Positions 14,695 to 56,730 of a stretch of 64,000 nucleotides of DNA are shown here, piece by piece. The DNA is from an uncultured Flavobacteriaceae bacterium (lineage in GTDB: Bacteria; Bacteroidota; Bacteroidia; Flavobacteriales; Flavobacteriaceae). Both the position numbers and the translations under genes were made by a program. Within the stretch, counting starts at the first letter, position 1. Every line of letters begins with the position of its first letter. A model generated the notes under the pieces. That model did no database searches. It saw only the letters and a program-made list of their open reading frames with translations, and was not told where the DNA came from. Where the stretch lies: contig CANNCA010000008.1 of the NCBI GenBank assembly GCA_947503005.1, positions 124,001 through 188,000 of the forward strand, in the 5' to 3' direction.

Positions 14695-14701
14695 AGTTAA
14701 A

Positions 14702-18332: not shown

Positions 18333-19625
18333 TTAAAGCAGAAAGTAAAGCAATAAAACCATAAGCCCACCTGAAATTGCAACTACCGCGGTTAACGTAC
18401 TAAAAGTCTTCAGAAGTTTTGTGGTGCCGATATCATGAACTTCTTTAAAGAGCCAAAAGAAACTACTATTTACATGAATTATTCCCAACGAACCTGCTCC
18501 AATGGATGCAGCGGTTAATCCCGCGGGAAGACTTCCGTTCGTAACAATGGGCGCAATTATAGAAGTGGTAGTTATTAGAGAAACTGTAATCGAACCCGTT
18601 ACCGTTGTAAACATAAAACTCAATAAAAATGGAAGTATGATTCCGAAGGCTGCTAGCCCACTCGCATCTGGCAACAGAGAATTTACAATTTCTGTGTCTT
18701 TAATGACCTGGCCAAAGGCACCGCCTGTTCCGGTAATCAAGATAACAGTCGCTGATTTCGCCCCCGCGGTTTGGAAAAAATCATTTAATTTCTTTGAAAA
18801 GTCCTTTTTATCTAAAAGTGGTAGCGCAAAGACAACTCCAAACAAAAGCGCCCAAACAGGGTTTTTAATAAATGCTATGATGGGATTTTCCCCTGAAAAC
18901 AAATTGCCCATTCCCATTAAAACCAACGGAATCAGTAAGGCCACAAATGGCAAAAGCCGCTTGAAACCTTGAATTTTGTTTTTAGTTTCTGGGCTGGCAA
19001 TCTCTTTTGGAAGAGGAATTGCCAAATTCTTTTTGTTGAATTTTATCCAAATCAATCCTCCTATAACAGCGAACAAACCTACTGTCACATTTATAGGAAT
19101 CATTCCTCCAATATCCGTTTCGAGAATGGCAGCCACTGCCAAAGGTCCTGGGGTAGGTGGAATCAATGCGTGGGCAACCGTTAAACTGCTAGCAAGGGAA
19201 AGCCCCAAGACTAAAACGGAATGACCCGATTTTCTCGACAAAGCAATTATGGTAGGAAGCAAGGTAAGATACGCCACATCTACAAAAACAGGAATGCCGA
19301 CCAGAAAACCGATAACAGCCATGGCCAAGGGTAAACGTTTGATTCCAAAAACCTTGATGACACTATCGGCAATCACATCGGCACCGCCTGTTACAGCTAA
19401 AATTTCACCGAGAAGTGTTCCAAAAAGAATAACAAGACCTATCCACTTTAAGGTGTTTCCAAAGCCACCCAGAAGGCTTTCCGTAACCGTTTCTACCGAA
19501 CTTCCAGAAGCTAGCCCAAGAATAAGTCCTGCAATCAAAAGTGCCGGAATCGGATGTACTTTTAGCACTGTTATCGCAACGATAAGCAATACAATACATC
19601 CAATTAAAACGGCAAAACCTGTCAT
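18333..19625 (-). CDS. GntP-family permease (gluconate-type sugar-acid:H+ symporter)
   Basis: A 430-residue polytopic inner-membrane protein with about 12-14 hydrophobic segments. It carries GntP-like features: LIAGLILGLASG near residue 30, LIPPTPGPLAVA near 155 and TGTGGAFGQVIKDT near 300. Length fits GntP/GntT. The family imports gluconate and related aldonates. It is last in the operon with sulfatases and anhydrogalactose enzymes, 5 bases after a sulfatase stop, so it may import a sugar acid or a ketodeoxy acid made in the periplasm or by other cells. The substrate is not readable from sequence. Confidence 0.85.
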   Translation of the reverse strand: MTGFAVLIGCIVLLIVAITVLKVHPIPALLIAGLILGLASGSSVETVTESLLGGFGNTLKWIGLVILFGTLLGEILAVTGGADVIADSVIKVFGIKRLPLAMAVIGFLVGIPVFVDVAYLTLLPTIIALSRKSGHSVLVLGLSLASSLTVAHALIPPTPGPLAVAAILETDIGGMIPINVTVGLFAVIGGLIWIKFNKKNLAIPLPKEIASPETKNKIQGFKRLLPFVALLIPLVLMGMGNLFSGENPIIAFIKNPVWALLFGVVFALPLLDKKDFSKKLNDFFQTAGAKSATVILITGTGGAFGQVIKDTEIVNSLLPDASGLAAFGIILPFLLSFMFTTVTGSITVSLITTTSIIAPIVTNGSLPAGLTAASIGAGSLGIIHVNSSFFWLFKEVHDIGTTKLLKTFSTLTAVVAISGGLMVLLLYFLL

Positions 19626-31486: not shown

Positions 31487-32287
31487 TTATTTGGAAGAGG
31501 AAAAGAAAAGCAAGGATTTTTTGACATGTTTTCCCCAATACGACCACTCATGAGCTCCAGAAAATTCATCATAAACATGGTTGACTTCCTTCTTTTCTAA
31601 AGCGGCGTGCAATTCACGGTTATAAGAAATCAAATCATCCTGGGTGCCACAATCGAAACGAAGTTTTGGAATCGCACCTCCATACTTCTCGAGTACACCT
31701 AAAACGGAATTTTCACGTTCATCTTCTTGCTCATAATTTTTTGTGGACTCTTCCACGAATAGGGGCATTTGAGCGATATCAGTAATCGAGGAATGCGCCG
31801 AAATTCCTTTGAACTTTTTTGCATACTTAATTCCTAAGCGAAGTGCTCCAAATCCTCCCATGGAAAGTCCGGAAATGAATAATTCAGATGTTGTACTTAC
31901 GGATGGAATATTTTGGATTACCGCATTAGGCACATCTTCTACAATCCATTTTTCAAAATCTTTTTGATTGTGTGCTAGATAGCCAGAGCCATCGCCCCAC
32001 AGTCCGTCGGAAGGCATAGCAATAACAATTGGAGGAATTTCCTTGTTTTGAATCATTTCCCAAGCTGTTCGATGGACCCCCGCTTTATGTGACCAGACCC
32101 AGGCACTTCCGTATACGCCGTGTAGCAAAATAACCAAGGGAAGGTTTTCAGCATTTTTAACAGGAGGAACAAAAACACAAATATCGCCTCGACCTTTTAA
32201 ATTCTTGGCCTTGACTGTTATGAATCGAAGGTTGTTGGTTTCAAATTGCGGGTCGGATATTTCGGTAGTTCTAAAGTGTTCTTCCAT
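31487..32287 (-). CDS. Cytoplasmic alpha/beta-hydrolase esterase, S-formylthiol hydrolase/esterase D-like
   Basis: A 266-residue protein without signal peptide. It shows LLHGVYGS (oxyanion region near 55-61), the nucleophile elbow GLSMGG (S142), an Asp near FDCGTQDD and a His near GAHEWSYW, in esterase D order. Its ATG overlaps the stop of the alcohol dehydrogenase by one base (TGATG). In that company a role in formaldehyde removal, hydrolysing an S-formyl thiol to formate, is plausible. Bacteroidota usually lack glutathione, so another thiol such as bacillithiol would be needed. The alternative is a carbohydrate deacetylase/esterase of the CE1 type acting on an imported substrate. Confidence 0.75.
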   Translation of the reverse strand: MEEHFRTTEISDPQFETNNLRFITVKAKNLKGRGDICVFVPPVKNAENLPLVILLHGVYGSAWVWSHKAGVHRTAWEMIQNKEIPPIVIAMPSDGLWGDGSGYLAHNQKDFEKWIVEDVPNAVIQNIPSVSTTSELFISGLSMGGFGALRLGIKYAKKFKGISAHSSITDIAQMPLFVEESTKNYEQEDERENSVLGVLEKYGGAIPKLRFDCGTQDDLISYNRELHAALEKKEVNHVYDEFSGAHEWSYWGKHVKKSLLFFSSSK

Positions 32288-33405
32288 CAGTCAAATACGA
32301 TTACGCCTTTGGCATTTTTTCCCGAGAGCATATCTTCAAAAGCTTGCTTCAATTGGTCTAAAGAATAGGTTCGGGTTATCATTTCTTCCAACTTTAATTC
32401 TCCAGATCGGTAGTGTTCCACAATTTTCGGGAAATCTTTCTCTGGATTACAGCCTCCGTATAGCGGATTGATATATACCTTATCCCATTCAAACAAGTTC
32501 ATATCGATGACGATTTCCTGCTCAATACCACTTACTTGAACTGCGGTGCCCGCATTACGAACCATTGCCAACGGTGCGGCCCCAAGTTCTGGAACGGCGG
32601 TACATTCAAATGCATAATCCGCTCCGCGATTATTGGTCATTTTTTTCACTTGCTCCGCCGCTTGCAATAAACCTTTATCATTTCTATCTGCTAAAATCGA
32701 ATGTGTCGCACCGAACGTTTTTGCCAATTCCAAACGATTTGAATTGATATCTATCGCGATGATTTTTCCAGCCTTACTAACTTTTGCTCCTTGAATAACA
32801 CTTAGGCCAACTCCACCGGTACCTAGAACTACCACAGAACTTCCTTCAGTAACCTTTGCTGAGTTAACAACAGAACCATAACCAGTCATCACTCCGCAAC
32901 TAATGATACTGGCAGCAGGAAAAGGCATCTCAGCATCTGGATTTTTTACTACGGCCGAAGCCTTGACCAAGGCATATTCTGAAAGTGTGCCCAGATTGAA
33001 CGAGCGCTCAATAGGCTTACCATTATACTTTGTTCCTTCCAAATGGGCATGACCATCTGTATATCCATTTGCACCTGCCACTACGGGAGAATTATTTTCA
33101 CAAATATGTTCGTTTCCCAAATTGCATTGAAAACAATTTCTGCAGGGAGTGGCCCAATTCAAGATAACGGCATCGCCAATTGCAATATTTTGGACCTCAG
33201 CACCAATCGCTTCCACGATACCTGAACCTTCGTGACCCATTACGATTGGTTTCCCCCAATTGAGGGAATCATGGTCGGTATGACAGAGTCCCGCAGCTTT
33301 TATTTTTACCAAAACCTCATCGGCTTTGGGTTCGGCCAAGGACACATTGTCGATAATGAAAGTACCATCACCTTTGGCAATGGCACTTTTTGATTGAACA
33401 CCCAT
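32287..33405 (-). CDS. Zinc-dependent alcohol dehydrogenase, class III-like, of the P450 demethylase module
   Basis: A 372-residue medium-chain dehydrogenase. Catalytic zinc ligands are C41 (GLCHTD), H58 and E59 (GHEGSG). All four structural zinc cysteines are present (C88, C91, C94, C102), and the Rossmann motif is GTGGVGLS. It resembles S-(hydroxymethyl)thiol/formaldehyde dehydrogenases. It follows the ferredoxin reductase with no gap and overlaps the esterase by one base. Such dehydrogenases are known to accompany the P450 6-O-methyl-galactose demethylases of marine Bacteroidota. Formaldehyde oxidation is the obvious idea, but I recall that tested relatives preferred other alcohols, so the substrate is uncertain. 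Confidence 0.85.
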   Translation of the reverse strand: MGVQSKSAIAKGDGTFIIDNVSLAEPKADEVLVKIKAAGLCHTDHDSLNWGKPIVMGHEGSGIVEAIGAEVQNIAIGDAVILNWATPCRNCFQCNLGNEHICENNSPVVAGANGYTDGHAHLEGTKYNGKPIERSFNLGTLSEYALVKASAVVKNPDAEMPFPAASIISCGVMTGYGSVVNSAKVTEGSSVVVLGTGGVGLSVIQGAKVSKAGKIIAIDINSNRLELAKTFGATHSILADRNDKGLLQAAEQVKKMTNNRGADYAFECTAVPELGAAPLAMVRNAGTAVQVSGIEQEIVIDMNLFEWDKVYINPLYGGCNPEKDFPKIVEHYRSGELKLEEMITRTYSLDQLKQAFEDMLSGKNAKGVIVFD

Positions 33406-34665
33406 TTAATCGTTGTTTGATTTGAATATTAGATTGTTCGGTTTAAACTCAACCGCGTTATCCGCAAGCTTTACTTTATCTATTGATTGATTTGTTTTAA
33501 TAAACTTCGTTCCAACGACGTAGGCCTTAGCATTGTTTATGGCGTCGACTGATAAAAGCTCATCTCCACTAAAATACCAAATTGAAAAACAAGGTTGGTC
33601 TTTTTTTTCCTTACGGATGACGATATTATCATAGCTCTCAGAAAGTCCTACAATCTGTAGTTTCACATCATATTGGTCTGACCAAAACCAAGGAATGGCA
33701 TCATAGATCACTTGTTTTCCACAGATGGTAGCTGCGGCCACCTTTGCTTGGTCCACGGCATTTTGAACGGATTCCAGCCGGACATATCTATCATAATGCG
33801 GATTGTGATGGAAGGTGCAATCTCCAATGGCATAGATATCTTTATCACTTGTGCGGGCTGTTGCATCAACTTTAATTCCGTTTTCAATTGTGAGTCCTGC
33901 TTGTTCGGCTAGTTCTGTATTTATATGAATACCCACACCTATTATAATGATATCCGCAGGATAAGTTGAACCATCTGAACAAACCACATTGTTCTTGGCG
34001 TTTTCCGTTGCTACCGAAGTCACATTTTTCCCAGTTAACACTTCCACGTCATTTTCGACATGGAGTTGATGGAAGAAATCGGACATTTCAGGTGCTGTCA
34101 CCCGAGCCAAAATCCGTTCTTCTCGTTCTAAAACTGTAACCTTCGAACCTAACTTATTTAAGGAAGCCGCAATCTCCAGACCTATGTAACCACCGCCTAT
34201 GACAACTACACTTTTATTAGGATTATCTCCTAAAGCGTTTCGGATTCCTTCTACATCTGCTACAGTTCTTAGTGGAAAAACATTTTTTACATTAGCTAAA
34301 CCCGGAATAGGAGGAACAATAGGACGCGCACCAGTAGCTAAAACCAATTTGTCGTAAGCTTGAACGGAACTATCTTCTAAAACAATCTCTTTTTCCTCGG
34401 CATTTACCAAAGCTACTTTTACGCCTAATTTCAGCAGGATGTTATCCCTTTCGTAGCTCTCTAAAGATTTCAAAGGTGTAGCCGACATACCTTCTTCATT
34501 GGTCAAGTAGGTTTTTGACAATGGAGGCCTATGATAAGGCAATTCAGGGTCGGCGTCATATAGGATGATTTGACCTTCCCATCCTTCCTTCCGTAAAGCG
34601 AAAGCGAGATTTACGCCTGCATGACTTGCACCAATAACTACACATTTTTGTTGGCTGTCTGACAT
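33406..34665 (-). CDS. NAD(P)H-dependent ferredoxin reductase (putidaredoxin-reductase type)
   Basis: A 419-residue FAD protein. The FAD-binding start is VIGASHAGVNLA, the NAD-binding motif VVIGGGYIGLEIA is near residues 145-158, and the C-terminal FAD contact is ATGARP/YAIGDC. It passes electrons from NAD(P)H to the [2Fe-2S] ferredoxin encoded 8 bases upstream, and so to the P450. The module order P450-ferredoxin-reductase is a complete class I P450 system. Confidence 0.92.
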   Translation of the reverse strand: MSDSQQKCVVIGASHAGVNLAFALRKEGWEGQIILYDADPELPYHRPPLSKTYLTNEEGMSATPLKSLESYERDNILLKLGVKVALVNAEEKEIVLEDSSVQAYDKLVLATGARPIVPPIPGLANVKNVFPLRTVADVEGIRNALGDNPNKSVVVIGGGYIGLEIAASLNKLGSKVTVLEREERILARVTAPEMSDFFHQLHVENDVEVLTGKNVTSVATENAKNNVVCSDGSTYPADIIIIGVGIHINTELAEQAGLTIENGIKVDATARTSDKDIYAIGDCTFHHNPHYDRYVRLESVQNAVDQAKVAAATICGKQVIYDAIPWFWSDQYDVKLQIVGLSESYDNIVIRKEKKDQPCFSIWYFSGDELLSVDAINNAKAYVVGTKFIKTNQSIDKVKLADNAVEFKPNNLIFKSNND

Positions 34666-34673
34666 CCTAAAAT

Positions 34674-34982
34674 TTATTTGGCGACTGTCAATTCCACGCC
34701 GTCAATAGCATCGCTAATTTCAATTTGACAGCATAAACGACTGTATTCATCTGCATTATCGTCGAGCTCCAGCATATCGGTTTCGATTTCGCTCGCGGGT
34801 CCTGTTTTTGTCATGTCTTCAGGTTTTACATGTACGTGACATGTAGCGCAAGAACAAACACCACCACAATCGCCATCGATTCCTTTTACATTATGTTCTA
34901 CTGCCAGTTCCATTACGGAACCTGAAGTCCCCTCAACTACAATAGTTTCATCATCACTTGTAATAAATGTAATTTTTGCCAT
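34674..34982 (-). CDS. [2Fe-2S] ferredoxin, putidaredoxin/adrenodoxin type
   Basis: A 102-residue protein with cluster ligands C39, C45, C48 (CGGVCSCATC) and the last Cys in SRLCC (C84 or C85), matching the C-x5-C-x2-C-x36-C pattern. It is the electron carrier between the reductase and the P450. It begins 4 bases after the P450 stop. Confidence 0.93.
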   Translation of the reverse strand: MAKITFITSDDETIVVEGTSGSVMELAVEHNVKGIDGDCGGVCSCATCHVHVKPEDMTKTGPASEIETDMLELDDNADEYSRLCCQIEISDAIDGVELTVAK

Positions 34983-34986
34983 GCTT

Positions 34987-36150
34987 CTAATTTGTTAATC
35001 GGTTGAATTTTACGTTAATATAATCGTAACCTACTTTACGTTTGAATTCATCAAGGTCCTCGATATTCTCTTTATAATCAAAGACTTCAATACTTTTAAT
35101 TTTGTCAGCCAATGTTTGTAATAATACTTTCATGATTTGTCTCGCATGAGTAGCCCCCAGACAATTGTGATGACTAAAACCAAACCCCACATGTGGATTG
35201 ATTTTACGGTCGAGGACTATTTCATTGGGATTTTCGAATACTGCATCATCTCTGTTAGCAGAAGCCCAACAAAGCGATACGCGAGTATCCGCTTTTACGG
35301 CATGTTCACAAACATGGGTGTCTTCGGTAACAACACGCCCCATTTGGGTCAATGGCGAAAAATAGCGAATCATTTCTTCCACAGCTTTCCCAATAATTTC
35401 AGGCTCTTTTCGAAAACGTTCCAAAGATTCTTGATGTTCTGATAAATAGGCAATAGCATTCGTAACCGCATTGATAATCGTATCCCGACCTCCGGCAAAG
35501 GTTAATACCATTACGCCTTTTACCTCCTCTCTGGTCAATTTTTTTCCTTCTACCTCCGATGCCAATAGCATTGAATACAAATCGGCTCCAGGATTTTCAA
35601 TCGCTTTATCGATTTCCTTATCAATGTAGTCATAAAGAATATTTGCCTTGTCTGCGTCTAATGCGGTATCCTCACTCCGGAATACGTGGGTACCCCAAGA
35701 AATCCAAGTTTCTGCTTCTTCGTATGGAATGTTCAAAAGCAAAGTCAATGCCCGAGATTGTAGAACAAGGGCAAATTCACCGATTACTTCAACCTTGTCT
35801 TTTTTTAGTGTTTCTTCGACCAATTCAGAAATTTGGTCAGTCAGCTTTTCGGTGTAGTCCACTTGTAAGGGTCTTTTGAACCAAGGTTCGACAATGGCGC
35901 GATAAAGTCCATGAATTGGAGGGTCTAATTCAAATGGAATCTGCCGGGTTTTACGAATATTGACTTCGGAGGGTACTACAATACGACCCGGTATCGCCCC
36001 AGACTGAAATGTTTTATAATTGTGCGCTGTTTTGCGGACATCTTTGTGTCGCAAAATCATTTTTACAGGGTCGTTTTGGTCTTTCATTTCGCCAATCCCT
36101 TTTTCTAAACGTGCTTTTTCAAATGGGTCTGGCAGTTCACTTTTTTGCAT
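34987..36150 (-). CDS. Cytochrome P450, probable 6-O-methyl-D-galactose demethylase (CYP236-like)
   Basis: A 387-residue soluble P450. The I-helix oxygen-activation motif is AGGRDT (219-224), the K-helix ExxR is EMIR (E259, R262) and the heme-thiolate loop is FGFSHHNCLG (C330); the usual second Gly of that loop is Ser here. With its ferredoxin and reductase it forms the three-gene system shown in marine Bacteroidota to oxidatively demethylate 6-O-methyl-D-galactose from porphyran, giving galactose and formaldehyde. It heads the leftward module and is divergent from an AraC gene (144 bases apart). Activity is inferred from the P450 system plus galactan PUL context. Confidence 0.85.
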   Translation of the reverse strand: MQKSELPDPFEKARLEKGIGEMKDQNDPVKMILRHKDVRKTAHNYKTFQSGAIPGRIVVPSEVNIRKTRQIPFELDPPIHGLYRAIVEPWFKRPLQVDYTEKLTDQISELVEETLKKDKVEVIGEFALVLQSRALTLLLNIPYEEAETWISWGTHVFRSEDTALDADKANILYDYIDKEIDKAIENPGADLYSMLLASEVEGKKLTREEVKGVMVLTFAGGRDTIINAVTNAIAYLSEHQESLERFRKEPEIIGKAVEEMIRYFSPLTQMGRVVTEDTHVCEHAVKADTRVSLCWASANRDDAVFENPNEIVLDRKINPHVGFGFSHHNCLGATHARQIMKVLLQTLADKIKSIEVFDYKENIEDLDEFKRKVGYDYINVKFNRLTN

Positions 36151-37141: not shown

Positions 37142-38791
37142 TTAGTGGGTTATTGCCCTATTCCCTTTCCAACCTTCTTGTAGTTGAGTGGTTAATTGCT
37201 CCACTAGGTCTTCATTTTCTTCAGCTACATTTTTGGTTTCAGCGGGGTCGGTTTGATGGTCATAAAGCTCCACGTGAAGAGGTTTCACTGAAGGATTTTT
37301 ACTATCCTTCCATGCTACAAATCGATAGCGTTCCGTACGCATGGAATAACCCATCAAATCATTTTCAAAAAAGTCACGATTCCATTTTTCACCTTGCTGT
37401 TTTATAATTCTTTCTTCAACATCTTGAATCAGCGGACCAAAATAAGTCTCCCTCATTTCTGCGGTTAAAGGATTTGCCGCCCATTCCCGAAGTGCCGGAC
37501 TAGGAAATTGACTGAAGGCCGCTTTCTTCCATACTTGATCTGGGTTTTGTAATAAGGGTACAAAACTCTGTCCCTCTAAATGATTTGGTTTTTCAAGTTC
37601 TGCTAAATCGACCAAAGTAGGGTACATATCAACTAATTCTACCAAGGCATCTGTTGTTTTGCCGCGGCTACCGTTAGGCATATCGGGTGTCCAAATAAGC
37701 AAAGGAACTCTTGTTGCAATTTCATAATTAGTGGCTTTTCCCCAAACACCCATATCCCCTAAATGCCAGCCATGGTCTCCCCACATAATTATTATGGTAT
37801 TTTCTCGAACCCCCGCCTCTTCCAAAGCATTAATCATTTTGCCGATTTGTGCATCCACATAACTTACAGAAGCCAAATATGCATGCTTTAAAGTTCGTGC
37901 CAATTCTCCTTCAATCGGGCCGCTTTTTGGAATGCCGTGTCGAACGCGAAGTTCAAAAGAAGCATGCAATCCCATTGCCGCACCATCTTCGGGAGCCTCC
38001 GTTTGTTTAGACATGGGTATTTTATGCCTGTCATATAAATCCCAATACTTTTTTGGCGCATTCCAATCTAAGTGGGGGAGACGAAACCCTAATCCTAAAA
38101 AGAAAGGTATGTCGTTCTTCTCTACCATATCTTTCAAAGTGGCAATGGCCAATTCTGTGTGGTAACCATCAATATATTCATGGTCTTGGACATCGGCCAT
38201 TTCGTATGCAGGCCCACGACCTAAGGCATAGTGACTTACACTGTTATACTTTGCTCGAATATCAGCCTGATTTTTTTTGTAGATTTCTTGATTTTCTTTG
38301 GTAGCGTAGGCTCCGGGATAATTTGGCTTCTTATATTTAACCTTATCGATTGCAGGTTGTCGACTCCATGATAGTGCGGAATCCGTAAATTTTCCATGGT
38401 ATATTTTCCCGGCATAAACCGTCTCATACCCATTGTTTTTAAAATGCTGAGGTAACGTAATGATATCTGGATTCTCATCACGGAAATAGGTGTAGTTTTC
38501 AATAACCCCAATCGTTTCGGGTCTGGCACCCGTCATTAAACTTGCTCTTGAAGGGCTACAAATGGCTTGCTGGCAATAGGCATTTTCAAAGAGGAGTCCG
38601 TCGCCTGCTAGGGCATCAATATTTGGTGTAATGGCAATTTCAGAACCGTAAGCTCCCAGTTCTGGCCGAAGGTCGTCTACAGCGATGAAAAGGATATTTG
38701 GTCTTTTCTCATTCGTTTCTGCAACTGTCGTTTCTTCTTTACACCCTGATAAAGACAACAATAAAGCGAGTAAAATCAATTGAAACTTCAT
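37142..38791 (-). CDS. Sulfatase (S1, iduronate-2-sulfatase-like), lipoprotein
   Basis: A 549-residue lipoprotein (LSLSGC). Metal motif IAVDDLRPELG (37-47), signature AICSPSRASLMTG with modifiable Cys C78, then ARPETIGV as in iduronate-2-sulfatase-like members (which I believe fall in S1_7). Later metal motif MWGDHGWHLG. It is last in the right-hand leftward operon, 7 bases after the GH16 stop. Iduronate is not expected in red algae, so a sulfated galactose or anhydrogalactose is the likely substrate; position unknown. Confidence 0.88.
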   Translation of the reverse strand: MKFQLILLALLLSLSGCKEETTVAETNEKRPNILFIAVDDLRPELGAYGSEIAITPNIDALAGDGLLFENAYCQQAICSPSRASLMTGARPETIGVIENYTYFRDENPDIITLPQHFKNNGYETVYAGKIYHGKFTDSALSWSRQPAIDKVKYKKPNYPGAYATKENQEIYKKNQADIRAKYNSVSHYALGRGPAYEMADVQDHEYIDGYHTELAIATLKDMVEKNDIPFFLGLGFRLPHLDWNAPKKYWDLYDRHKIPMSKQTEAPEDGAAMGLHASFELRVRHGIPKSGPIEGELARTLKHAYLASVSYVDAQIGKMINALEEAGVRENTIIIMWGDHGWHLGDMGVWGKATNYEIATRVPLLIWTPDMPNGSRGKTTDALVELVDMYPTLVDLAELEKPNHLEGQSFVPLLQNPDQVWKKAAFSQFPSPALREWAANPLTAEMRETYFGPLIQDVEERIIKQQGEKWNRDFFENDLMGYSMRTERYRFVAWKDSKNPSVKPLHVELYDHQTDPAETKNVAEENEDLVEQLTTQLQEGWKGNRAITH

Positions 38792-45483: not shown

Positions 45484-46764
45484 TTATTCTGAACTTTTCT
45501 TGATTCGAGCTTCTTTTTGTTTTTCACTCAACCCTTGCCTATAATAGACATCGGGCGCATGATTCACACGATGTTGTTTCATTTCAGGATCATGAATATC
45601 CAGACTCAGGTCACAGTCAAAACGAACCAATTTAGAACTGAACCTGTCCCAATCGCCGGTTACATTTATGAAATGGGCCAATCCCCAAGTAATTCCGCGA
45701 CCCTCTTTGGTATTGGTAAAAGCATCGGGTACATAGGGTGCAGCCGCATAGGGCATTAATTCGGTTATGGAGGCAATTTCAAAATTCACCCAATCTTCAG
45801 CATACTGCACTGTATTGTGTTCCGGCCCATCTTTATACACAAGAGCCGCAACCCCTTTTTTAAAAGGAAAAAGTGATGTTTCGTGCCCTGAAGTAATCAC
45901 AGGATTCAAAGGGTGTTTGGTAAAGGGGCCTAAAGGATTGTCCGCAATGGCCAATCCTTGCATGCGCACTAAATCCGGTCTTTCCCCAAAATCAGATTTG
46001 TAATAAATGTATATTTTTCCATCATGGACAAGCGGATAAGGGTCGTGAATGGAATTCACGTCCCATTCACCTTCAGCGCCATTAGGAATAACAATTTGGT
46101 TAGTAGCAGTCCACGGACCATCAGGGGAATCGGCATAGGAAACGGCAACCGGACAATCATCGCCCCCATTCTTTCCTGATGCTACCGAGAAGGCCTGATA
46201 GTACAAATAGTATTTCCCTTCCCATTCTAAAATATCAGTTGTAGTAACCGATCGATGGCCAACATTCGGAGCGGGTGGTCTTGGAATGGCAACTCCCTGT
46301 TCTTCCCAAGTAAAACCATCTTCCGAAGTGGCGTAATAAATATCCGCCAAATCCCAATCTGATGACGGAATAGTATCATTTGATTTTGAGGCGTTAGGAA
46401 TTCCAACTGGTGGAACAGGAGTTTCACGATGGGTGTACCAGACATAATATCTTCCATTATAGAAAATGGTCTTCGAAGGATCCCGCCTTGATATGGTACC
46501 GTCATGGTCGTTATAATCAAAACCCTCGAGTTCGGTGTATTTAAACTGACTGAACAATTCGTTTTTCTCAGGTCTTGGTGAGGCATAATCGGTGTAGATT
46601 CGTTCCATCGCCGCACTCATAGCTCTATTTGGCTTTTCCTCTGGAAGATGAAAGGGGAATCCGTTTTGTTTCTTAACGACTTCTTGTGCCGAAGTATTTT
46701 TCTCTTGCATACAGGAAAAAAGAACTGCTGAGAATAAAAAAAGTAATGCAATTGAATCTCTCAT
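45484..46764 (-). CDS. GH117-family glycosidase paralog (clade other than AhgA), lipoprotein
   Basis: A 426-residue lipoprotein (AVLFSC). It has the GH117 framework with catalytic residues conserved: D95 in SRRDPSK, D241 in IHDPYPL and H294/E295 in TSGHETS. It differs from AhgA in the loops (RETPVPPVGIPNAS, GHRSVTTTDILEWEG). It is a clear paralog of the next gene (46786-48063) and only a distant one of the GH117 at 4001. Non-AhgA GH117 clades in Zobellia have no settled substrate, so it may act on sulfated, methylated or D-configured terminal residues. Confidence 0.85.
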   Translation of the reverse strand: MRDSIALLFLFSAVLFSCMQEKNTSAQEVVKKQNGFPFHLPEEKPNRAMSAAMERIYTDYASPRPEKNELFSQFKYTELEGFDYNDHDGTISRRDPSKTIFYNGRYYVWYTHRETPVPPVGIPNASKSNDTIPSSDWDLADIYYATSEDGFTWEEQGVAIPRPPAPNVGHRSVTTTDILEWEGKYYLYYQAFSVASGKNGGDDCPVAVSYADSPDGPWTATNQIVIPNGAEGEWDVNSIHDPYPLVHDGKIYIYYKSDFGERPDLVRMQGLAIADNPLGPFTKHPLNPVITSGHETSLFPFKKGVAALVYKDGPEHNTVQYAEDWVNFEIASITELMPYAAAPYVPDAFTNTKEGRGITWGLAHFINVTGDWDRFSSKLVRFDCDLSLDIHDPEMKQHRVNHAPDVYYRQGLSEKQKEARIKKSSE

Positions 46765-46785: not shown

Positions 46786-48063
46786 CTATTTTTCAGTACT
46801 ATTTTTCTTTTGACTAAATCCCTGCTGAAAATAAACCTCGGGTTTGTGCCAAACGGTACTTTTTTTAAACACTCGCGGATTATCGTAATCCAAGCTCAAA
46901 TCACAATCAAAGCGCGCAATAATCGAATGCTGTTTGCCCGCTGCACCGGCATTGATGAAATGGCAGAGACCCCAAGTGAATCCTTTGCCATAATCGGTAT
47001 TCGTAAATGCATCCGTCAAATAGGGCGCTGCAGCGATTGGGGTGAATGAAAGGCTTGACGCAATTTCAAAATTTACACCATCTTCTGAATATTGCATGGT
47101 CTCCCGCTCATTTCCATCTCGTATCGTCAAAGCTGCTACGCCCTCCTTAAAGGGAAAATACGTGGTTTCATGACCAGAGGTCATTACCGGATTTAAGGGA
47201 TGTTTTTCAAATGGACCTAAGGGATCGTCAGCTATGACCAACCCATGGCCAACGGCATATTGGTCTCGAATGTCGGGCCATTTATTAAAGGCCGCTTTAT
47301 AGTACATATAAATTTTATCCTTAAATACAATCGGATGCGGGTCGTGTGTGGCATCTTGATCCCATTCCCCTTTATTACCAAAGGGAATGATTTCGGATGC
47401 GCCATGTATCCATGGACCATCGGGAGAATCTGCATAGGAAACGGATACTGGGCACCAATCGCCGCGAAGCCCGCTTGGTTCACTAAAGGCTTGATAATAG
47501 AGATAATATTTTCCTTCCCAAATCAAAATATCAGGAGTCGCCACGGACCGCCATCCTGAGGTGGGTTTTTCCGGTCGGGCAACGGCTATGCCTTGCTCTT
47601 TCCAAGTAATTCCGTCTTCACTGGTAGCATACCAAATATCACATAAATCCCAATCGGTTGAGGGAATTTCATCTGTAGCCTCGCTAGCATTCCCTGCCCC
47701 AACTGGTGGAACTCTAGTCTGCCTTTTCGTGTAATAGATATAGTATTTTCCATCGACCTTGATAGGTCTTGAAGGGTCACGTCTTGAAACGGTTCCATCA
47801 CCATCATTATAATCAAAACCTTTTAGTCGGGTATATTTGAATTGGGAAAAAAGCTCATTGTCGTGTATGCCTTTGCCCGGATAACCGAACATTCGTTCCG
47901 TGGCAGCACTCATTGGAATATCAGGTTTCTCGTCCGGCATTTTATGTGGGAAAACTGCAACTGTTTTTTCCACTGAAACTGGTTCAGATTTCGTTTCCGG
48001 TTCCCCACAGGAAAATAGTAGAAAGACGATGGGGCTATGCAATACGAATCTAAAAATTTTCAT
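46786..48063 (-). CDS. GH117-family glycosidase paralog, lipoprotein
   Basis: I chose the ATG at 48063 (425 residues), where a lipoprotein signal starts (MKIFRFVL to LLFSC). The longer frame from 48123 would overlap the upstream gene by 41 bases and add twenty polar residues. Catalytic residues are kept: D96 in SRRDPSR, the Asp in THDPHPI, and His-Glu in TSGHETT. Shared segments with the gene downstream (MSAA, ELFSQFKYT, GFDYND, DAFTNT) show a tandem duplication. Loop differences suggest distinct substrates. Gaps are 21 and 19 bases on either side. Confidence 0.86.
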   Translation of the reverse strand: MKIFRFVLHSPIVFLLFSCGEPETKSEPVSVEKTVAVFPHKMPDEKPDIPMSAATERMFGYPGKGIHDNELFSQFKYTRLKGFDYNDGDGTVSRRDPSRPIKVDGKYYIYYTKRQTRVPPVGAGNASEATDEIPSTDWDLCDIWYATSEDGITWKEQGIAVARPEKPTSGWRSVATPDILIWEGKYYLYYQAFSEPSGLRGDWCPVSVSYADSPDGPWIHGASEIIPFGNKGEWDQDATHDPHPIVFKDKIYMYYKAAFNKWPDIRDQYAVGHGLVIADDPLGPFEKHPLNPVMTSGHETTYFPFKEGVAALTIRDGNERETMQYSEDGVNFEIASSLSFTPIAAAPYLTDAFTNTDYGKGFTWGLCHFINAGAAGKQHSIIARFDCDLSLDYDNPRVFKKSTVWHKPEVYFQQGFSQKKNSTEK

Positions 48064-48082: not shown

Positions 48083-49168
48083 TCACTTAAAATCCTCAAG
48101 AAATACCTGGGCCAGAAATGCATACGTTTGATTTTCAGACTTTGAAAATTCTAGAATATTGTTATGAGTTTCGGCATTTAATCCTTCACTATTTGACAAG
48201 TGGGTCAAAAAGCCCTTAAGTTGATTCTTACTCATAACACCCAATTTATCGGAAAGCACTTCAGGTACGTAATCAGGTGCCTCATCCAAATACTTCATCA
48301 TCAAACTTCGGCTACTTGTATCTATCAGGTCGAATGCATTCCAAAACGGTTCTTGTAAAACAGGAGCATCCTTGTATTTGGTGGTAAGACGTTTTGCAAT
48401 AATGCTACGTACAAGTGGGGTGCTTGTTCTGAAGACTTTGGCAAGCTGCTCGTAGTGTTTCTTATAGTCGGAAGCATCCATATTTTCCATGGCAAAAATC
48501 TGATACCCCGGATTGATGCTATACAGCATATCCAAGGTCATTTGCTTATCCAAAATCGATAAGGAATGTGCTTTCAATTGTTCTTGAATGTCGCCGTGTA
48601 CCAAGTGCCATGCCGTATAACATGAATAAAGTGCCCCTGAGACTACTGATTCCTTTACCCTTGCAATAGTGGCCCCAGAAACCGCGTCTACCCCGTTTAC
48701 CGTTCTCATTTTGGGCTTTTCAACCAGTTGGTCTATGCTCCTTCGCCCCATTAGATTTTTGTCGTCTGCCAACAACTTATGTAACTTTTGATAGTCCGCT
48801 TCCCCGAACTCATCGTGGTCATGTTTGGTCAAAGGCATCATTGGGTACCGGTCAAATCCGGCATATTCCCCTAACAGGGTCCAATAGAATTTGATGTTCA
48901 TCAATTTACATTCACCATCCGCGCAAACGGGGGTAGCAATTTCAGCGGTATATAACACCGGGACTTTCCTTTCGTTCACCAAAGCGAGAACATCTTGTTT
49001 GCCCATGGAATCCACTTCGATAAAAAAATCGGTGCGCTCGGGAGTCAATTGCGTGCCTTCCTTCCACTCCAAAACAAAATATTCTGGAGGATGATCCATA
49101 GGTTTTTCCGTTGGTTTATTTCCCAGTAAAAGGAAGCCCATTATTGCTATTGAAAATACGATTCTCAT
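48083..49168 (-). CDS. Secreted protein with FMN_bind-type flavinylation motif (DAVSGAT) and helical C-terminal domain
   Basis: A 361-residue protein with a short signal peptide (MRIVFSIAIMGFLLLG). Residues 80-160 carry two cysteines (CADGEC) and a conserved-looking block (NIKFYWTLLGEYAGFDRYP). Residues 161-167 read D-A-V-S-G-A-T, the pattern in which ApbE attaches FMN to the Thr in RnfG, NqrC and NosR. The rest (about 200-361) is helical, HEAT-like and of no recognised family. Its ATG overlaps the stop of the FAD oxidoreductase upstream by 4 bases, so the two are coupled. A periplasmic electron carrier for that enzyme is my inference. Confidence 0.7.
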   Translation of the reverse strand: MRIVFSIAIMGFLLLGNKPTEKPMDHPPEYFVLEWKEGTQLTPERTDFFIEVDSMGKQDVLALVNERKVPVLYTAEIATPVCADGECKLMNIKFYWTLLGEYAGFDRYPMMPLTKHDHDEFGEADYQKLHKLLADDKNLMGRRSIDQLVEKPKMRTVNGVDAVSGATIARVKESVVSGALYSCYTAWHLVHGDIQEQLKAHSLSILDKQMTLDMLYSINPGYQIFAMENMDASDYKKHYEQLAKVFRTSTPLVRSIIAKRLTTKYKDAPVLQEPFWNAFDLIDTSSRSLMMKYLDEAPDYVPEVLSDKLGVMSKNQLKGFLTHLSNSEGLNAETHNNILEFSKSENQTYAFLAQVFLEDFK

Positions 49169-50961
49169 TTTTTCGATTCTGGAATATTCTCGAACTTTTG
49201 TTTTTCGATCAAGTCCAAATATTCATCTAAATAACCTGTATAGATTTCCCTGGGGTTTACATCGTATTTTTTACACAGTGCCGCAGCGAAACCCACGGCA
49301 GCGCCCATTTGGCCCGTAGTTCGCATTACTCTTGGACCGCCCAGACCAGCGTGGGAGCAACTGAAATTTCGACCGGCCATAAATAGATTGGAAATATTCT
49401 TGGAATATAAGCTGCGATAGGGAATGTAGTACTCCGGGGTCTTATAAAACAATGCCTCAGAAATGAAATCTGGATTCTTCTCGTCTTCCAAAACGGTTTG
49501 ATAATGAATATCTACATCACGAATCTCAATGACTACGCCGTCAGGAAATTTTCGTCCTTCTTTCGCATCGTTGAAGGTAAAAATATGGTCCCCAACCAAT
49601 CTTCTCGATTCTCTTTTTCCGACTAAAGAAGAAACCCATTCCAACTTTCGATTGGCGTTTGTCGAATCTTTTTTAGCATTGGCGAACGAACCGTAAATGG
49701 CACGTAACATATGATCTCGAATATCCTCCGCATCATCGATTTGATTATGGTCAGGACTACTGAACTCCCATTGCCATTCCCCGGCAACCCTGGCATATTC
49801 TTTCGCTACGGGCATGGCCCAAGGTACTTCCGGGAAAGTATGTTCGGTATCCGTTTCTTTCGAACCCCATAAAACGGAAGATCCCATTACCGCATCATCG
49901 GGCTCGGTGGGTGTCCACAATTCGCCATGTTCTTCCCAAACTTCCCCGTAGGTTTCAGCACTTTCTCTTCCGTAATTGAATTCCGCCCCTGCCCAGTAGC
50001 CAATCCAACCGTCACCGGTAGAGTCTACAAATCTTGGTGCCATAAACCGAATGCGCTGCCCGGTCGAAGTATGTCTCGCATCGACATATTGAATCGAACT
50101 GTCTTCGGCCTTGGCATCATAAGCCCTGTGATTTAAAAACAAATCGATGTTTTCATAGCTTTTGACATTATCATCGCGCTTTTTTTGGTCGAGCTTGGCT
50201 TCCGCGCTGCCATTGGGGTAATGCTCTGTGTCTATTTTTTTTAGAATCCGCTCGAAATTTCCGTAGATACCCAAGGTGTGTACACGTATTTCTTCACTGG
50301 CATTTCCTCCTAGAACGGGGCGGTCATGGATCAAGGCTACTTTGAGTCCCTGTTCAGCGGCTGCGATGGATGCGGCGCATCCTGCTAGTCCACCTCCAAC
50401 AACAACCAAGTCATACGATTTCGTCACAGGAGGGGCATTGGGTTCAGACTTTACTCTTTTGCGCCATTCGGTCAACTTTTTCGATGATGAGGGAGGTTCC
50501 TCATTTTTAGTAGAAAAGTAAATGGCGTCGCACCTTCCGTCGAAACCCGTTACATCGACTAGCGCTACATCGATTTGATGATCGGTGACGGAAATCTTAT
50601 CGACGTATTCCCAACCCCAGCCCGATCGTAGGCCCAGCATTTTATCTAAGGTATTTCCATCAACTTTGAGTTGAAATCTCCCCGGAGCTTCCCAATTTCC
50701 AGGCACCCAGTTTTTGGTACGTACCCAAACATGATATTCTCCGTTGGATTCAAACTTGACTTTGGTTGTAGCATTTTTGACGGGTTCTCCTATTCCGTGT
50801 GCTAATAAATATGGAGACCCCATCTGTTGTTCGAATTGAGGATCTACGGTCCAACCCCCTGGATTGTCAAAACTTTCTGCTTCGATTAATACATCTTGGC
50901 CATGCAATGAACTGGTTAAGACAAAAACAAAAGTGGCAACGAATATTTTTGAGAGTTTCAT
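49165..50961 (-). CDS. Secreted FAD-dependent oxidoreductase (FAD_oxidored type) with N-terminal beta-sandwich domain
   Basis: A 598-residue protein with signal peptide (to LHGQ, about residue 22). Residues 23-155 resemble a carbohydrate-binding beta-sandwich (IEAESF, GEYHVWVRTKNW, FQLKVDG). From about 183 a flavin Rossmann fold starts (DLVVVGGGLAGCAASIAAAEQG in two parts; G189-G194), followed by GGNASEEIRVHTLG and a C-terminal FAD contact (FMAGRNFSCSH, TGQMGAAVG). No cytochrome or membrane anchor is seen. A glycan-binding module on a flavoenzyme among GH117, GH127 and sulfatase genes suggests oxidation of a sugar or oligosaccharide outside the cytoplasm. The substrate is unknown. Confidence 0.82.
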   Translation of the reverse strand: MKLSKIFVATFVFVLTSSLHGQDVLIEAESFDNPGGWTVDPQFEQQMGSPYLLAHGIGEPVKNATTKVKFESNGEYHVWVRTKNWVPGNWEAPGRFQLKVDGNTLDKMLGLRSGWGWEYVDKISVTDHQIDVALVDVTGFDGRCDAIYFSTKNEEPPSSSKKLTEWRKRVKSEPNAPPVTKSYDLVVVGGGLAGCAASIAAAEQGLKVALIHDRPVLGGNASEEIRVHTLGIYGNFERILKKIDTEHYPNGSAEAKLDQKKRDDNVKSYENIDLFLNHRAYDAKAEDSSIQYVDARHTSTGQRIRFMAPRFVDSTGDGWIGYWAGAEFNYGRESAETYGEVWEEHGELWTPTEPDDAVMGSSVLWGSKETDTEHTFPEVPWAMPVAKEYARVAGEWQWEFSSPDHNQIDDAEDIRDHMLRAIYGSFANAKKDSTNANRKLEWVSSLVGKRESRRLVGDHIFTFNDAKEGRKFPDGVVIEIRDVDIHYQTVLEDEKNPDFISEALFYKTPEYYIPYRSLYSKNISNLFMAGRNFSCSHAGLGGPRVMRTTGQMGAAVGFAAALCKKYDVNPREIYTGYLDEYLDLIEKQKFENIPESKK

Positions 50962-50972: not shown

Positions 50973-52661
50973 TTATTCATTCCAGTGTGCATCGATTACT
51001 TTTTGAATGTGCGGATAATTGGCATCCGTTTCATTTAAATCTTCGCGCATATGAACCAATTGCTTTTTTAGTTCTGCAATTGTTTCTTTATATGCCGGGT
51101 CCTTGTAGGCATTTTTCATTTCTTTAGGGTCTTTTGTCAAATCATAAAACTCCCAGGCAGGTGGTGTATGATTGGCGAAGTCATTGCCCCAACTTTCTTT
51201 ATTCCATTCGGCTTCAGGGTCATCTGTATCCACCCAATACTTTCCGTAGTAGAAAATCAGTTTATGATCCTTGGTACGGATGCCGAAATGTGCCGGATTT
51301 TGATGGCGGTGCGCCAAGTGCATCCAATATCGGTAATACGTAGCTTTTTGCCAAGTTGCAGGTTCGTTTCCCGTTTCCAAAATGGTTTTAAAGCTTTTGC
51401 CTTGCATGTAGTCGGGAGTGGTACCGCCTGCCAATTCAATCATGGTCGGCGCAAAATCAGTGTTGTTGATTATCGCATCCGTACGGCTTCCGGCCTTTAT
51501 TTGTTCAGGATAGCGAACAAAAAACGGCATGCGCATCGATTCGTCGTACATCCAGCGCTTATCGATATAATCATGCTCACCCAGCATAAAGCCCTGGTCC
51601 CCCGTATACACGATAATTGTGTTTTCCAGCAATCCTTCCTCCTTCAAATAATCGATTAGGCGCTTGATATTATCATCTACCCCTTTGACGCAGCGCAGGT
51701 ACTTCTTCAAATAATCTTGATATACTTTACTGGTATATTCTTTTTCCTTAGCATCCATTTCCCATTTCACATATTCTTCTGGTTTTATGTCCCGCGCATT
51801 TCTATATTGTTTGTAAATGGTACTATCGTTCCAGTAAATATTCATGGCTTGGTTTCGAATGACATTTCTATGCGATACAGAAGAACCGATAATTCTCGTC
51901 AAGGAATCCCTTTCACCACGAATGGCCTCCGAACCATGATTACCAATGTCGTACAAACTTTCCGGTTCAGGAATGAAGGTATCTTCCAAATAATCTTCAT
52001 AGCGTGGGGCATATTCGAAATCATCATGTGGTGCCTTAAAATGGTGCATTAGGAAAAATGGCTGATTCTTATCTCTTTTGTTTTTCAGGTAATCTAAGGT
52101 GGCATCCATGATCATATCGGAGGAATGTCCTTTGGTTTGTATCGTATTTTCGGGCCAAGGGTTTTCGCCTTGTACCCTGAACTCAGGGTCGTAATATTTT
52201 CCTTGTCCCGGCAATACCTGATAGAAATCAAAAGACGCGGGTTCATGATGCAAATGCCACTTTCCGACGATGGCCGTTTGATACCCCAATTTTTTCATTT
52301 CCTTCGGTAGAAATTGCTTTTCGGGAGCAATTGCCCCTTCCAAATCAATTACTCCATTAGTCTGTGCCCGTTGTCCAGTTATGATGGCGGCCCTACTTGG
52401 AACACAGATTGCATTATTTACAAAGGCATTGTCGAAAATCATTCCTTCCTTTGCCAAAGCATCCAGGTTAGGTGTTGGGTTTAGCCCTGCTAACCTACTT
52501 CCATAAATACCAAATGCTTGAGTGGTATGATCATCTGACATAATGTAAATGATGTTGGGTTTAGTTAAGCTCTCTTCTTCTTTCTCCTTGCAGGAAAAAA
52601 GTACAAGAACACATAAAATGGGTAGGAGGTAGGACTTTAAATTATAGAAATTGAATTTCAT
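50973..52661 (-). CDS. Sulfatase (S1, formylglycine type), lipoprotein; first gene of the right operon
   Basis: A 562-residue lipoprotein (VLFSC). Metal motif IMSDDHTTQAFG (about 40-51), signature AICVPSRAAIITG with modifiable Cys C86, then QRAQTNGV. TGDQGFMLGEHDY supplies later metal and sulfate contacts. Its style (S1_11-like or related) differs from the other four sulfatases in the window. It heads the leftward operon running to 37142; the direct repeat at 52748-52764 and a -7-like box at 52708-52715 lie upstream. Eleven bases separate it from the FAD oxidoreductase. Confidence 0.88.
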   Translation of the reverse strand: MKFNFYNLKSYLLPILCVLVLFSCKEKEEESLTKPNIIYIMSDDHTTQAFGIYGSRLAGLNPTPNLDALAKEGMIFDNAFVNNAICVPSRAAIITGQRAQTNGVIDLEGAIAPEKQFLPKEMKKLGYQTAIVGKWHLHHEPASFDFYQVLPGQGKYYDPEFRVQGENPWPENTIQTKGHSSDMIMDATLDYLKNKRDKNQPFFLMHHFKAPHDDFEYAPRYEDYLEDTFIPEPESLYDIGNHGSEAIRGERDSLTRIIGSSVSHRNVIRNQAMNIYWNDSTIYKQYRNARDIKPEEYVKWEMDAKEKEYTSKVYQDYLKKYLRCVKGVDDNIKRLIDYLKEEGLLENTIIVYTGDQGFMLGEHDYIDKRWMYDESMRMPFFVRYPEQIKAGSRTDAIINNTDFAPTMIELAGGTTPDYMQGKSFKTILETGNEPATWQKATYYRYWMHLAHRHQNPAHFGIRTKDHKLIFYYGKYWVDTDDPEAEWNKESWGNDFANHTPPAWEFYDLTKDPKEMKNAYKDPAYKETIAELKKQLVHMREDLNETDANYPHIQKVIDAHWNE

Positions 52662-52845: not shown

Positions 52846-52896
52846 ATTTTAACTACAAGTTGTAGACTAGTTTTGTTTAAACTTTTATTACAACCT

Positions 52897-55248: not shown

Positions 55249-56730
55249 TTACTTTTCCAAAGATGGATTGGATTTGCCTAAATGTTTGTTATAAAATTTC
55301 CAAGTTTCCTTAGCAACATTCCTGCCTAATTCCAGGCCGGCAACATTGTCGGCTTGAATGTGATATCCGCCCATTACACGAGACATTCCGGCCATATCAG
55401 CGGTTTCCGTGAAAGTCGGGAATTTGATTGTTACCGGATTACCAAAGTTCTTCGGGTCGGTTTCGGTCAGCGAACCGGGTATCAATTCAACTTCCTCTCC
55501 AAAATAGTCCGCTCCCGTAAAAAGACGTAATGCTTCACCGCAAGCACCACTAATGGTGCTATGGCCTGAGGTATAGCTTGGGAAAGGAGGGCATAAAAAA
55601 ATGTCGGGCGAATACGGTCGCCATTCCTCTCCCTTCATTTTCGTGATTCCTTGACCAGGGCCTCCCCAAGCCTTAATCACCTGATCTTGGTAATAATCGT
55701 GTACCAGTGCATATGGTCTTGCGTAATCGTAGAACATTTTTGAATCCCATGAAGCGATAAAAGCATCCATTGCCGTTACTTCGGTTAAGAAATACATCTT
55801 AACATCTTGATCTAGTGTGTGTTTGTCCCTTCTTGAAACATCTTGCGCAAATTTCAGCCAGTGCCCGGCTTGCTGTACGGACTGCGGTCCATCACGCATA
55901 AATTCAACCAGAGCCTTATCTTCATCTGTCAAATTGGCCTGAAGGTCAATGACTTCTTGAACTTCCTTTTTCAACTGCTCTGAACCTACCATCGGTGGAG
56001 GGCCTGGCCTAAATTGATCCGCCGATTTCAAGGCAATGGGTTTTACATGTTGCCAATAAGGTGTAAGACAGCTCGGCGCATACCTGCCGCCATTCCCGTC
56101 CGAAAAGTATTTAGGTTGCCAGCGATTAATATCCGTATTTTCATCCGCAGAGTTTACAGGACTGTAATTGGTATAATCAAAATATGGTTCTCCGTTGGAA
56201 CCTTCGATTTCCCCATACTGATTGCTACCATCATTCTTTCTTGCCGCAATTATGGCCTTAGCCGCAAGGTTTCCGATACCTTCAGGCGAGCTTGGGTCCA
56301 AAGATGTATTCTTAGGGTCGAAACCTAAATCGAGCATAAATGCTTCAAACATTGCCGTATCTGAATAGTAATATTCTTTCATTGCACCAAATGCAGCATA
56401 GCTGATAGCAATCTCTTTGTTTTTTAATGAATGCTCCTCAACAGGTCTTCTTTCGACATCGTTTAAATAGACTGGAATCGCATTTTCATCATACCGTGAC
56501 CACGCGTCGAATATTGAAACGAAAATCAAGCCCAAATATCTCGAGGTAATTGTAGGTCTTGGTTTAAATTTTTCGGTATCCGAGGCGGTAGCAGCCAAGG
56601 CCATATTACCCCATTTGTATGCTATGTTTTCGGGGGCTACCGGCTCTTCTATTTTACTTTTTTGTGCGCTAAGACTGTAGGTTACAGTGATTAAGAATGT
56701 AATTATATAGACTTTCAAATAACTTTTCAT
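55249..56730 (-). CDS. Vanadium-dependent haloperoxidase-like PAP2-superfamily protein, secreted
   Basis: A 493-residue protein with signal peptide (TYSLSAQ). The full vanadate/phosphate-binding pattern is visible: K331-x6-R338-P339 (KMFYDYARP), then PSYTSGHST (S388, G389, H390) and S450-R451-x5-H457-x3-D461 (SRVMGGYHIQAD). This fits the motif KX6RP...PSGH...SRX5HX3D of vanadium haloperoxidases and related acid phosphatases; the PSGH block has an extra Y-T insertion. Marine flavobacteria such as Zobellia have vanadium iodoperoxidases, and algal halides would be available. Phosphatase activity is the alternative. It stands alone, converging with the stress-protein gene. Confidence 0.78.
   Translation of the reverse strand: MKSYLKVYIITFLITVTYSLSAQKSKIEEPVAPENIAYKWGNMALAATASDTEKFKPRPTITSRYLGLIFVSIFDAWSRYDENAIPVYLNDVERRPVEEHSLKNKEIAISYAAFGAMKEYYYSDTAMFEAFMLDLGFDPKNTSLDPSSPEGIGNLAAKAIIAARKNDGSNQYGEIEGSNGEPYFDYTNYSPVNSADENTDINRWQPKYFSDGNGGRYAPSCLTPYWQHVKPIALKSADQFRPGPPPMVGSEQLKKEVQEVIDLQANLTDEDKALVEFMRDGPQSVQQAGHWLKFAQDVSRRDKHTLDQDVKMYFLTEVTAMDAFIASWDSKMFYDYARPYALVHDYYQDQVIKAWGGPGQGITKMKGEEWRPYSPDIFLCPPFPSYTSGHSTISGACGEALRLFTGADYFGEEVELIPGSLTETDPKNFGNPVTIKFPTFTETADMAGMSRVMGGYHIQADNVAGLELGRNVAKETWKFYNKHLGKSNPSLEK

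Follow-up and report, generated by a model that had tools for sequence, protein, structure and literature searches.

A putative redox pair of an exported FAD oxidoreductase and a flavinylated carrier in a red-algal galactan utilization locus

Positions 48,083 to 50,961 of a 64,000-nucleotide stretch of contig CANNCA010000008.1 (assembly GCA_947503005.1; the whole stretch is hereafter the window), from an uncultured member of the Flavobacteriaceae, hold two overlapping genes within a polysaccharide utilization locus (PUL). One encodes a secreted flavin adenine dinucleotide (FAD)-dependent oxidoreductase and the other a smaller protein, the carrier, with a sequence resembling the site at which ApbE attaches flavin mononucleotide (FMN). 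A preliminary description of this DNA had proposed that the two proteins oxidize a sugar outside the inner membrane. Both genes lie where that description placed them, on the minus strand, which it had left unsaid, and the ATGA overlap that it reported is present. The features of the pair are as follows.

49165..50961, minus strand: secreted FAD-dependent oxidoreductase of 598 residues (signal at about 1-21, β-rich N-terminal domain at about 22-160, PF12831 at 184-576)
48083..49168, minus strand: putative ApbE-flavinylated electron carrier of 361 residues (N-terminal signal or anchor, mixed α/β motif domain, HEAT-like C-terminal half)
49165..49168, minus strand: ATGA overlap of the enzyme stop codon and the carrier ATG, read at 49168-49165
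48908..48925, minus strand: CADGEC, carrier residues 82-87, an invariant C-x4-C at a β-hairpin turn (between model strands 70-83 and 86-96)
48668..48688, minus strand: DAVSGAT, carrier residues 161-167, the predicted flavinylation motif, with Thr167 as acceptor
48086..48589, minus strand: HEAT-repeat-like helical half of the carrier (model helices from about 180-194 onwards, Foldseek matches, and weak HEAT_2 matches in 6 of 52 carriers)

The exported enzyme and the conserved carrier

The enzyme matches PF12831 (FAD_oxidored) at E=4.4e-64 (217.7 bits, cut-off 27) over profile positions 1-410 of 416. It has Rossmann glycines at residues 189-191 and 194 and, by reading of the sequence, a hydrophobic export signal at its N terminus. 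PF00890 (FAD_binding_2) also scores above its cut-off, at 32.7 bits, with a best stretch that covers only profile positions 1-37 of 414. The 10 Pfam families listed for this protein at E up to 1 include no GMC domain (AA3). The signal and FAD fold of the preliminary description stand, whereas its carbohydrate-binding β-sandwich fares less well. The structural model (pLDDT 80.2) has strands at 64-150, the one hint of a carbohydrate-binding module is a Golvesin_C match below its cut-off (E=0.0029), and a PDB search with this domain gave no match, so that we do not retain the assignment.

Fumarate reductase and flavocytochrome c3 chains head the Foldseek matches of the enzyme model, and urocanate reductase also ranks high (best E 4.5e-10). 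A geranylgeranyl reductase-like protein and some other proteins are interspersed, and TM-scores are about 0.2-0.3 by query length. According to the accessible part of PMC8238504, enzymes of the fumarate reductase and flavocytochrome c3 type exchange electrons with a second redox domain. The genome of the window encodes a further full-length PF12831 protein of 623 residues with a hydrophobic N terminus (G000:C3:276767-278107, L101); a protein search of this genome finds one carrier only.

The N terminus of the carrier also reads as hydrophobic. Export signals were judged throughout from sequence pattern and reading of the N termini, a hydrophobicity score having called five signal-less enzymes 'Sec-like' owing to their Rossmann strand. 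We aligned 52 carriers, namely that of the window and 51 from 48 fetched loci. The alignment leaves out L028, a duplicate of L001, as well as the carriers of L160, L161, L176, L177 and L181; those of L160 and L161 are short (288-292 residues) and may lack part of the HEAT-like half. Cys82, Cys87, Trp96, Gly100 and Phe121 are present in all 52 sequences, Asp161 and Thr167 in 51 each, and Gly165 and Ala166 in 50 each. Against a mean column identity of 31%, the conservation of the two cysteines, Asp161 and Thr167 is more than chance would produce.

DAVSGAT conforms to the ApbE substrate motif D-x-x-[ST]-G-A-[ST] given in the part of PMC12052999 that was available. The strict motif occurs in 38 of the 52 carriers and a DxxAGA[ST] variant in 10. 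This variant is not alien to ApbE targets, because the window's genome also encodes an FMN_bind protein, NqrC-like to judge from the neighbouring genes, that carries DALAGAT. The AlphaFold2 model of the carrier (mean pLDDT 89.0) has strands between residues 41 and 107 and a helix at 123-134, with the motif in a low-confidence loop (pLDDT blocks of 51 and 54). Among the 50 listed of 400 Foldseek matches, α-solenoid chains predominate (best E 0.025, none at E<=0.001) and no FMN_bind fold appears; we read the solenoid matches as due to the C-terminal half of the modelled protein.

Similarity to known FMN-binding domains is faint. Seven of the 52 carriers match FMN_bind (PF04205) at E up to 1 (best 0.017), and a profile search of PDB sequences returns the FMN-domain chain 8p2b at E=0.11. 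Alignment of the carriers with FMN_bind proteins by hhalign gives a probability of 54%, confined to the 15 motif columns, with a template of five proteins (5 of 12 loci; the other 7 gave no open reading frame (ORF) by the extraction rule). No Pfam family scores above cut-off for the window carrier. Because the FMN_bind score lies under its cut-off, the motif domain would be a diverged or new ApbE-substrate domain. We accordingly dropped membership of FMN_bind and kept the family as a functional likeness.

Linkage of the pair, export and ApbE

A PF12831-type enzyme adjoins the carrier on the same strand at 50 of the 51 fetched carriers and in the window, so that 51 of 52 aligned carriers sit beside an exported FAD oxidoreductase. 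The enzyme belongs to the Sec-type clade of the window at 29 of the fetched carriers and has a twin-arginine translocation (Tat)-type RR motif at 21, the compartment type of L082 and L027 being assigned by reading; L091 and L093 have an additional signal-less second enzyme copy. The two genes overlap by four nucleotides in the window and at 20 of the 51 fetched carriers, and the ATGA overlap suggests translational coupling.

Starting from the enzyme in the sample of family genomes gives the same picture. A carrier lies within 1 kb of all 22 enzymes of 65-100% identity to that of the window and of 20 of the 30 more distant ones of up to 680 residues, together 42 of 52, compared with 0 of 25 enzymes of 750 residues or more. 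The enzymes so listed account for 40 of the 47 carriers in the sample; of the remaining seven carriers, five adjoin a more distant enzyme and two (in G785 and G410) have no FAD enzyme alongside. The ten N termini that were read among the 25 long enzymes begin at the Rossmann fold with no export signal. The carrier thus accompanies export, which is what an electron exit should do.

Signal-less PF12831 enzymes of about 760 residues in L162-L167, L179 and L180 lie beside a sodium:solute symporter (SSF) gene in sugar-degradation clusters without a carrier. In six fetched loci (L162-L167) the gene preceding the long enzyme is 38-79% identical to the SSF symporter of L065, and records of Persicobacter psychrovividus (L179) and Catenovulum adriaticum (L180) annotate a sodium:solute symporter in this place. 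These enzymes may perform related chemistry inside the cell.

The carrier distances correlate with those of the enzyme at 0.88 across 51 pairs and at 0.93 across the 29 pairs of clade 1, where none of 2,000 permutations was as high. Kinship inflates such correlations, so what counts is the contrast with SusC: in 17 loci that contain SusC the pair correlates at 0.92, against 0.54 and 0.37 with SusC.

Random association of the pair with PULs, or a genome lacking ApbE, had been named beforehand as observations that would count against the carrier, as had a DAVSGAT buried outside an FMN_bind fold, to which the low-confidence motif loop and the hhalign and Foldseek results above relate. Neither the pair nor its PUL setting is a random association, as the adjacency, the 42 of 52 against 0 of 25, and the clade 1 correlation indicate, together with the PUL markers that 47 of the 51 fetched carriers have no more than seven genes away. 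ApbE is present: the genome of the window has two apbE genes, one of them 3.4 kb from the NqrC-like FMN_bind gene, and all 50 carrier genomes have apbE, compared with 80 of 149 in a class sample. In these respects the original observation is right, and stronger than first stated.

Two clusters contain apbE itself. The gene order is carrier, FAD enzyme, apbE in G242 (L023), and sulfatase, Tat-type FAD enzyme, apbE, carrier in G909 (L181). The chance expectation of apbE within 3 kb is about 0.13 genomes, and the probability of two or more is about 0.008, counting one carrier per genome. At the other loci compared, a search with own-genome ApbE gave no relative among the neighbour genes. The position of apbE inside two clusters is better evidence than its counts across genomes, and supports reading the partner protein as a flavinylated carrier.

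Locus setting and distribution

The pair belongs to an operon whose genes are all on the minus strand. The sulfatase gene is the first of this run (the next ORF, at 52873, is on the plus strand) and is followed by the FAD enzyme and the carrier, and then by two GH117-type enzymes, another sulfatase, a GH127 enzyme, a transporter named MFS-type from its sequence, a GH16 enzyme and a further sulfatase. The pair thus sits between the operon-heading sulfatase and the GH117-type enzymes, as first described.

50973..52661, minus strand: S1-type sulfatase at the operon head, a relative of exo-L-galactose-6-sulfatase (7lha, its closest solved structure, E=4e-183, 613 bits)
46786..48063, minus strand: GH117-type enzyme, first of the pair (4u6b, E=3.9e-220, 735 bits; 3p2n and 4ak5, E about 1e-60)
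45484..46764, minus strand: second GH117-like enzyme (GH43-clan Pfam match; GH117 by resemblance to its neighbour)

The first GH117-type enzyme scores 186-211 bits against solved 3,6-anhydro-galactosidases, which we take to be of family GH117; its likely start is 48063, because the longest ORF overlaps the carrier gene. The GH16 enzyme matches 9ijc best (202 bits), followed by other GH16 chains, porphyranase A (65 bits) and carrageenases (about 40 bits); the best of these chains bear no substrate name. The window also contains SusC/SusD genes (13087-17809, named from sequence) and, at 31487-36150, genes for a cytochrome P450, a ferredoxin-reductase-like protein, a zinc alcohol dehydrogenase and an esterase, a set that resembles the one described for 6-O-methyl-D-galactose of porphyran in the available part of PMC10033563.

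SusC/D, GH117, a sulfatase and a galactanase-type GH16 are therefore all present, and the matches of the heading sulfatase, the GH117 and GH16 enzymes and the P450 set mark the locus as a red-algal galactan PUL. A role specific to carrageenan, hinted at by the GH127, MFS-type and anhydrogalactose-pathway-like genes, was considered and set aside in view of the sulfatase, GH16 and P450-set matches, and in our judgement agar or porphyran fits better. Three further minus-strand genes were noted: a second sulfatase beside the GH16 gene with no FAD enzyme of the module adjoining it (37142-38791), a DUF6851/VCPO-domain, vanadium-haloperoxidase-like protein near the PUL (55249-56730), and a GntP-family permease within the PUL that is a candidate sugar-acid importer (18333-19625).

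At 14 fetched carriers the gene just upstream of the enzyme encodes a sulfatase. Four of these sulfatases are orthologues of the heading sulfatase with 85-89% identity (L002, L029, L060 and L030, the last a 130-residue piece at the end of its locus). Six, with Tat-type enzymes (L088-L092 and L181), are 63-67% identical to the window sulfatase at 37142-38791. At 13 of the 51 carriers the very next gene belongs to the CstA transporter cluster (for example L066, 7922-9364; Pfam run on one member), and genes of GH2, GH16, GH29, GH31, GH97 and GH109 types lie near other copies. Galactose-type sugars would be the common thread of these neighbourhoods. Two neighbours of 872 and 486 residues in L063 yielded no identity. 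In L066, L071 and L072 the gene two places upstream of the FAD enzyme is of the DUF7133-cytochrome c type (Pfam scan of L066), and its product may be a further extracytosolic oxidoreductase of that PUL.

The carrier was found in 9 of 395 genomes of the class, 4 of 14 of the genus and 40 of 397 of the family (47 copies), and by profile search in 8 of 345 genomes of the phylum. The samples overlap, and the genome of the window is part of each count; combined, the samples hold 50 distinct carrier genomes. Two plasmid records carry it as well. In Flammeovirga kamogawensis the pair is annotated 'FAD-dependent oxidoreductase' and 'hypothetical protein' and is flanked on both sides by sulfatase genes; in Persicobacter sp. 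JZB09 one gene lies between the enzyme and carrier genes.

Proposed redox step and its alternatives

We propose, with a probability of roughly 0.6, that the two genes encode a dedicated periplasmic redox pair that oxidizes a galactose-type sugar, with electrons leaving through covalent FMN. The sequence of the PF12831 enzyme has an export signal and an FAD-type Rossmann fold. Its partner would likewise be exported, and ApbE would link FMN to Thr167 of DAVSGAT to form a covalent flavin carrier, a well-supported step. The invariant C-x4-C may brace or assist the flavin domain, and the HEAT-like half may serve for docking. The FAD enzyme would take two electrons from a galactose-type sugar, most likely a non-reducing end or free sugar bared once the upstream exo-sulfatase has removed the sulfate. 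Electrons would then pass from FADH2 to the carrier FMN and on to the respiratory chain, and the oxidized product would go to the GH117/GH127 enzymes or to import. Of the parts of this scheme, the electron-carrier role of the 361-residue protein is probable; both the oxidative direction of the FAD enzyme and a sugar end as its substrate are inferred.

A number of observations weigh against the proposal. Four of the 52 carriers have odd motifs (DAVSEPT, DALSGST, HAVSGAS and DAITSAT). The window carrier reaches only 12.3 bits with FMN_bind (cut-off 22; E=0.27, residues 151-168) and 14.3 bits in the FMN_bind search of its own genome, again below the 22-bit cut-off; its N-terminal domain has no structural match among the 50 Foldseek matches listed of 400. 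ApbE is common in the family anyway (4 of 4 family members seen in the class sample). As all family members seen have apbE, the fair contrast lies outside the family, where it is present in 6 of 6 carrier genomes compared with 76 of 145 (P=0.03, assuming no family member among 49 unlisted misses). Linkage is also imperfect: ten enzymes of up to 680 residues have no adjoining carrier (one is a broken frame), two of the 42 carrier-linked enzymes are signal-less second copies, and three carriers have no neighbouring FAD enzyme (L026, L160 and L161, with L160 on a 5-kb contig). Seven RR-type enzymes with no carrier within two genes also speak against a strict rule, these having been fetched because they are carrier-less. 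No conserved membrane redox partner is found among the neighbour clusters listed. Finally, the characterized FAD/FMN pairs named in the accessible text of PMC8238504 are reductases.

This last point favours the most serious rival, in which electrons flow the other way: the flavinylated protein would bring them from the respiratory chain and the FAD enzyme would reduce a keto-sugar, an enone or an unsaturated sugar. Fumarate and urocanate reductases lead the fold matches, and the part of PMC8238504 at hand describes FMN-binding domains that are fused to fumarate-reductase-like enzymes or encoded in their clusters, the characterized enzymes being respiratory reductases. The window enzyme, however, is a PF12831 protein whose PF00890 match covers just the first 37 profile positions, the PUL holds an oxygen-using P450, and the PUL genes scanned in the window are hydrolases, sulfatases and dehydrogenases. 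A scan of 20 neighbour proteins, two of which received no family assignment, brought up no polysaccharide lyase. We consider reverse flow unlikely, if less so than the readings that follow.

The second protein could instead carry no flavin and assist the exported enzyme as a chaperone, a scaffold or a factor for FAD insertion, DAVSGAT being a structural loop. A HEAT-like half is typical of scaffolds, strict pairing would suit a maturation factor too, and the sub-threshold FMN_bind scores and odd motifs point the same way. Such a role accounts poorly for the near-invariance of the Asp and Thr of a seven-residue ApbE motif, or for the presence of apbE in two clusters, in one of which (L181) it immediately precedes the carrier. 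The carrier accompanies Tat-type as well as Sec-type enzymes, although proteins exported by Tat normally fold around their cofactor beforehand. This reading seems slightly less plausible still than reverse flow. Most improbable is a redox-neutral enzyme that oxidizes the sugar transiently for cleavage or epimerization, with a carrier that only primes or rescues the flavin. GH109 is a family of NAD-dependent, oxidation-assisted hydrolases, and a gene of this type comes after the pair in L084-L086 (assigned by Pfam for L084 only); against this, a dedicated carrier beside all 22 close relatives suggests net electron flow.

The redox pair proposed here has partial counterparts. As far as the available part of PMC8238504 describes them, Listeria FrdA and Shewanella UrdA likewise tie an exported FAD enzyme to a covalent-FMN domain, and 189 clusters have an FMN-binding domain within two genes of an extracytosolic fumarate-reductase-like flavoenzyme. 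Unlike FrdA and UrdA, the window enzyme belongs to PF12831; its carrier is a separate protein with a C-x4-C and a HEAT-like half and no FMN_bind match over cut-off; the pair is set in PULs; and its presumed direction is oxidation. The same text reports ApbE substrates outside PF04205, DUF2271 and DUF3570, which resemble the carrier in bearing the motif, although DUF3570 has two motifs. Neither family was reported for the window carrier, nor does either occur in the portion shown (25 of 46 families) for the 52 aligned carriers. The survey's entry points, as given there, were PF02424, PF04205, DUF2271 and DUF3570, and the carrier family would therefore have been caught only where one of these, such as apbE, lies near. 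In the portion of Ficko-Blean et al. 2017 (PMC5698469) that was accessible, a figure legend mentions 'FR/SR' and 'UNK' genes in carrageenan PULs. A literature search by title and abstract, which left subscription papers mostly uncovered, found no description of the pair and no paper linking PULs to flavinylation or to an FMN carrier.

The CAZy family AA3 (the GMC family) and the PQQ/cytochrome c dehydrogenases are secreted sugar oxidoreductases. They share with the proposed pair the extracytosolic oxidation of a sugar and an external electron acceptor, and differ from it in that the window enzyme shows no GMC domain among its 10 listed Pfam families and that an FMN carrier would take the place of haem.

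In related PULs the module recurs alongside different hydrolases and transporters of CstA, SSF or MFS type, and the pair therefore has the character of a portable redox cassette. More tentatively, this cassette may be respiratory: a new class of ApbE substrate would serve as the private electron exit of an exported FAD dehydrogenase acting on the sugar end that an exo-sulfatase lays bare, desulfation and oxidation would together prepare the glycosidic bond for cleavage, and respiratory electrons would be drawn from the algal sugar ahead of its import. PULs are described as sets of genes for binding, transport, hydrolases, lyases and sulfatases, and our analysis suggests an overlooked redox step outside the inner membrane in algal-sugar clusters. 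If the proposal is correct, the carrier represents a new ApbE-target protein family that a PF04205 search does not pick up above cut-off. With the carrier in about one-tenth of the family's genomes, and PUL markers near nearly all fetched copies, extracytosolic redox chemistry would then be a standing part of algal polysaccharide turnover.

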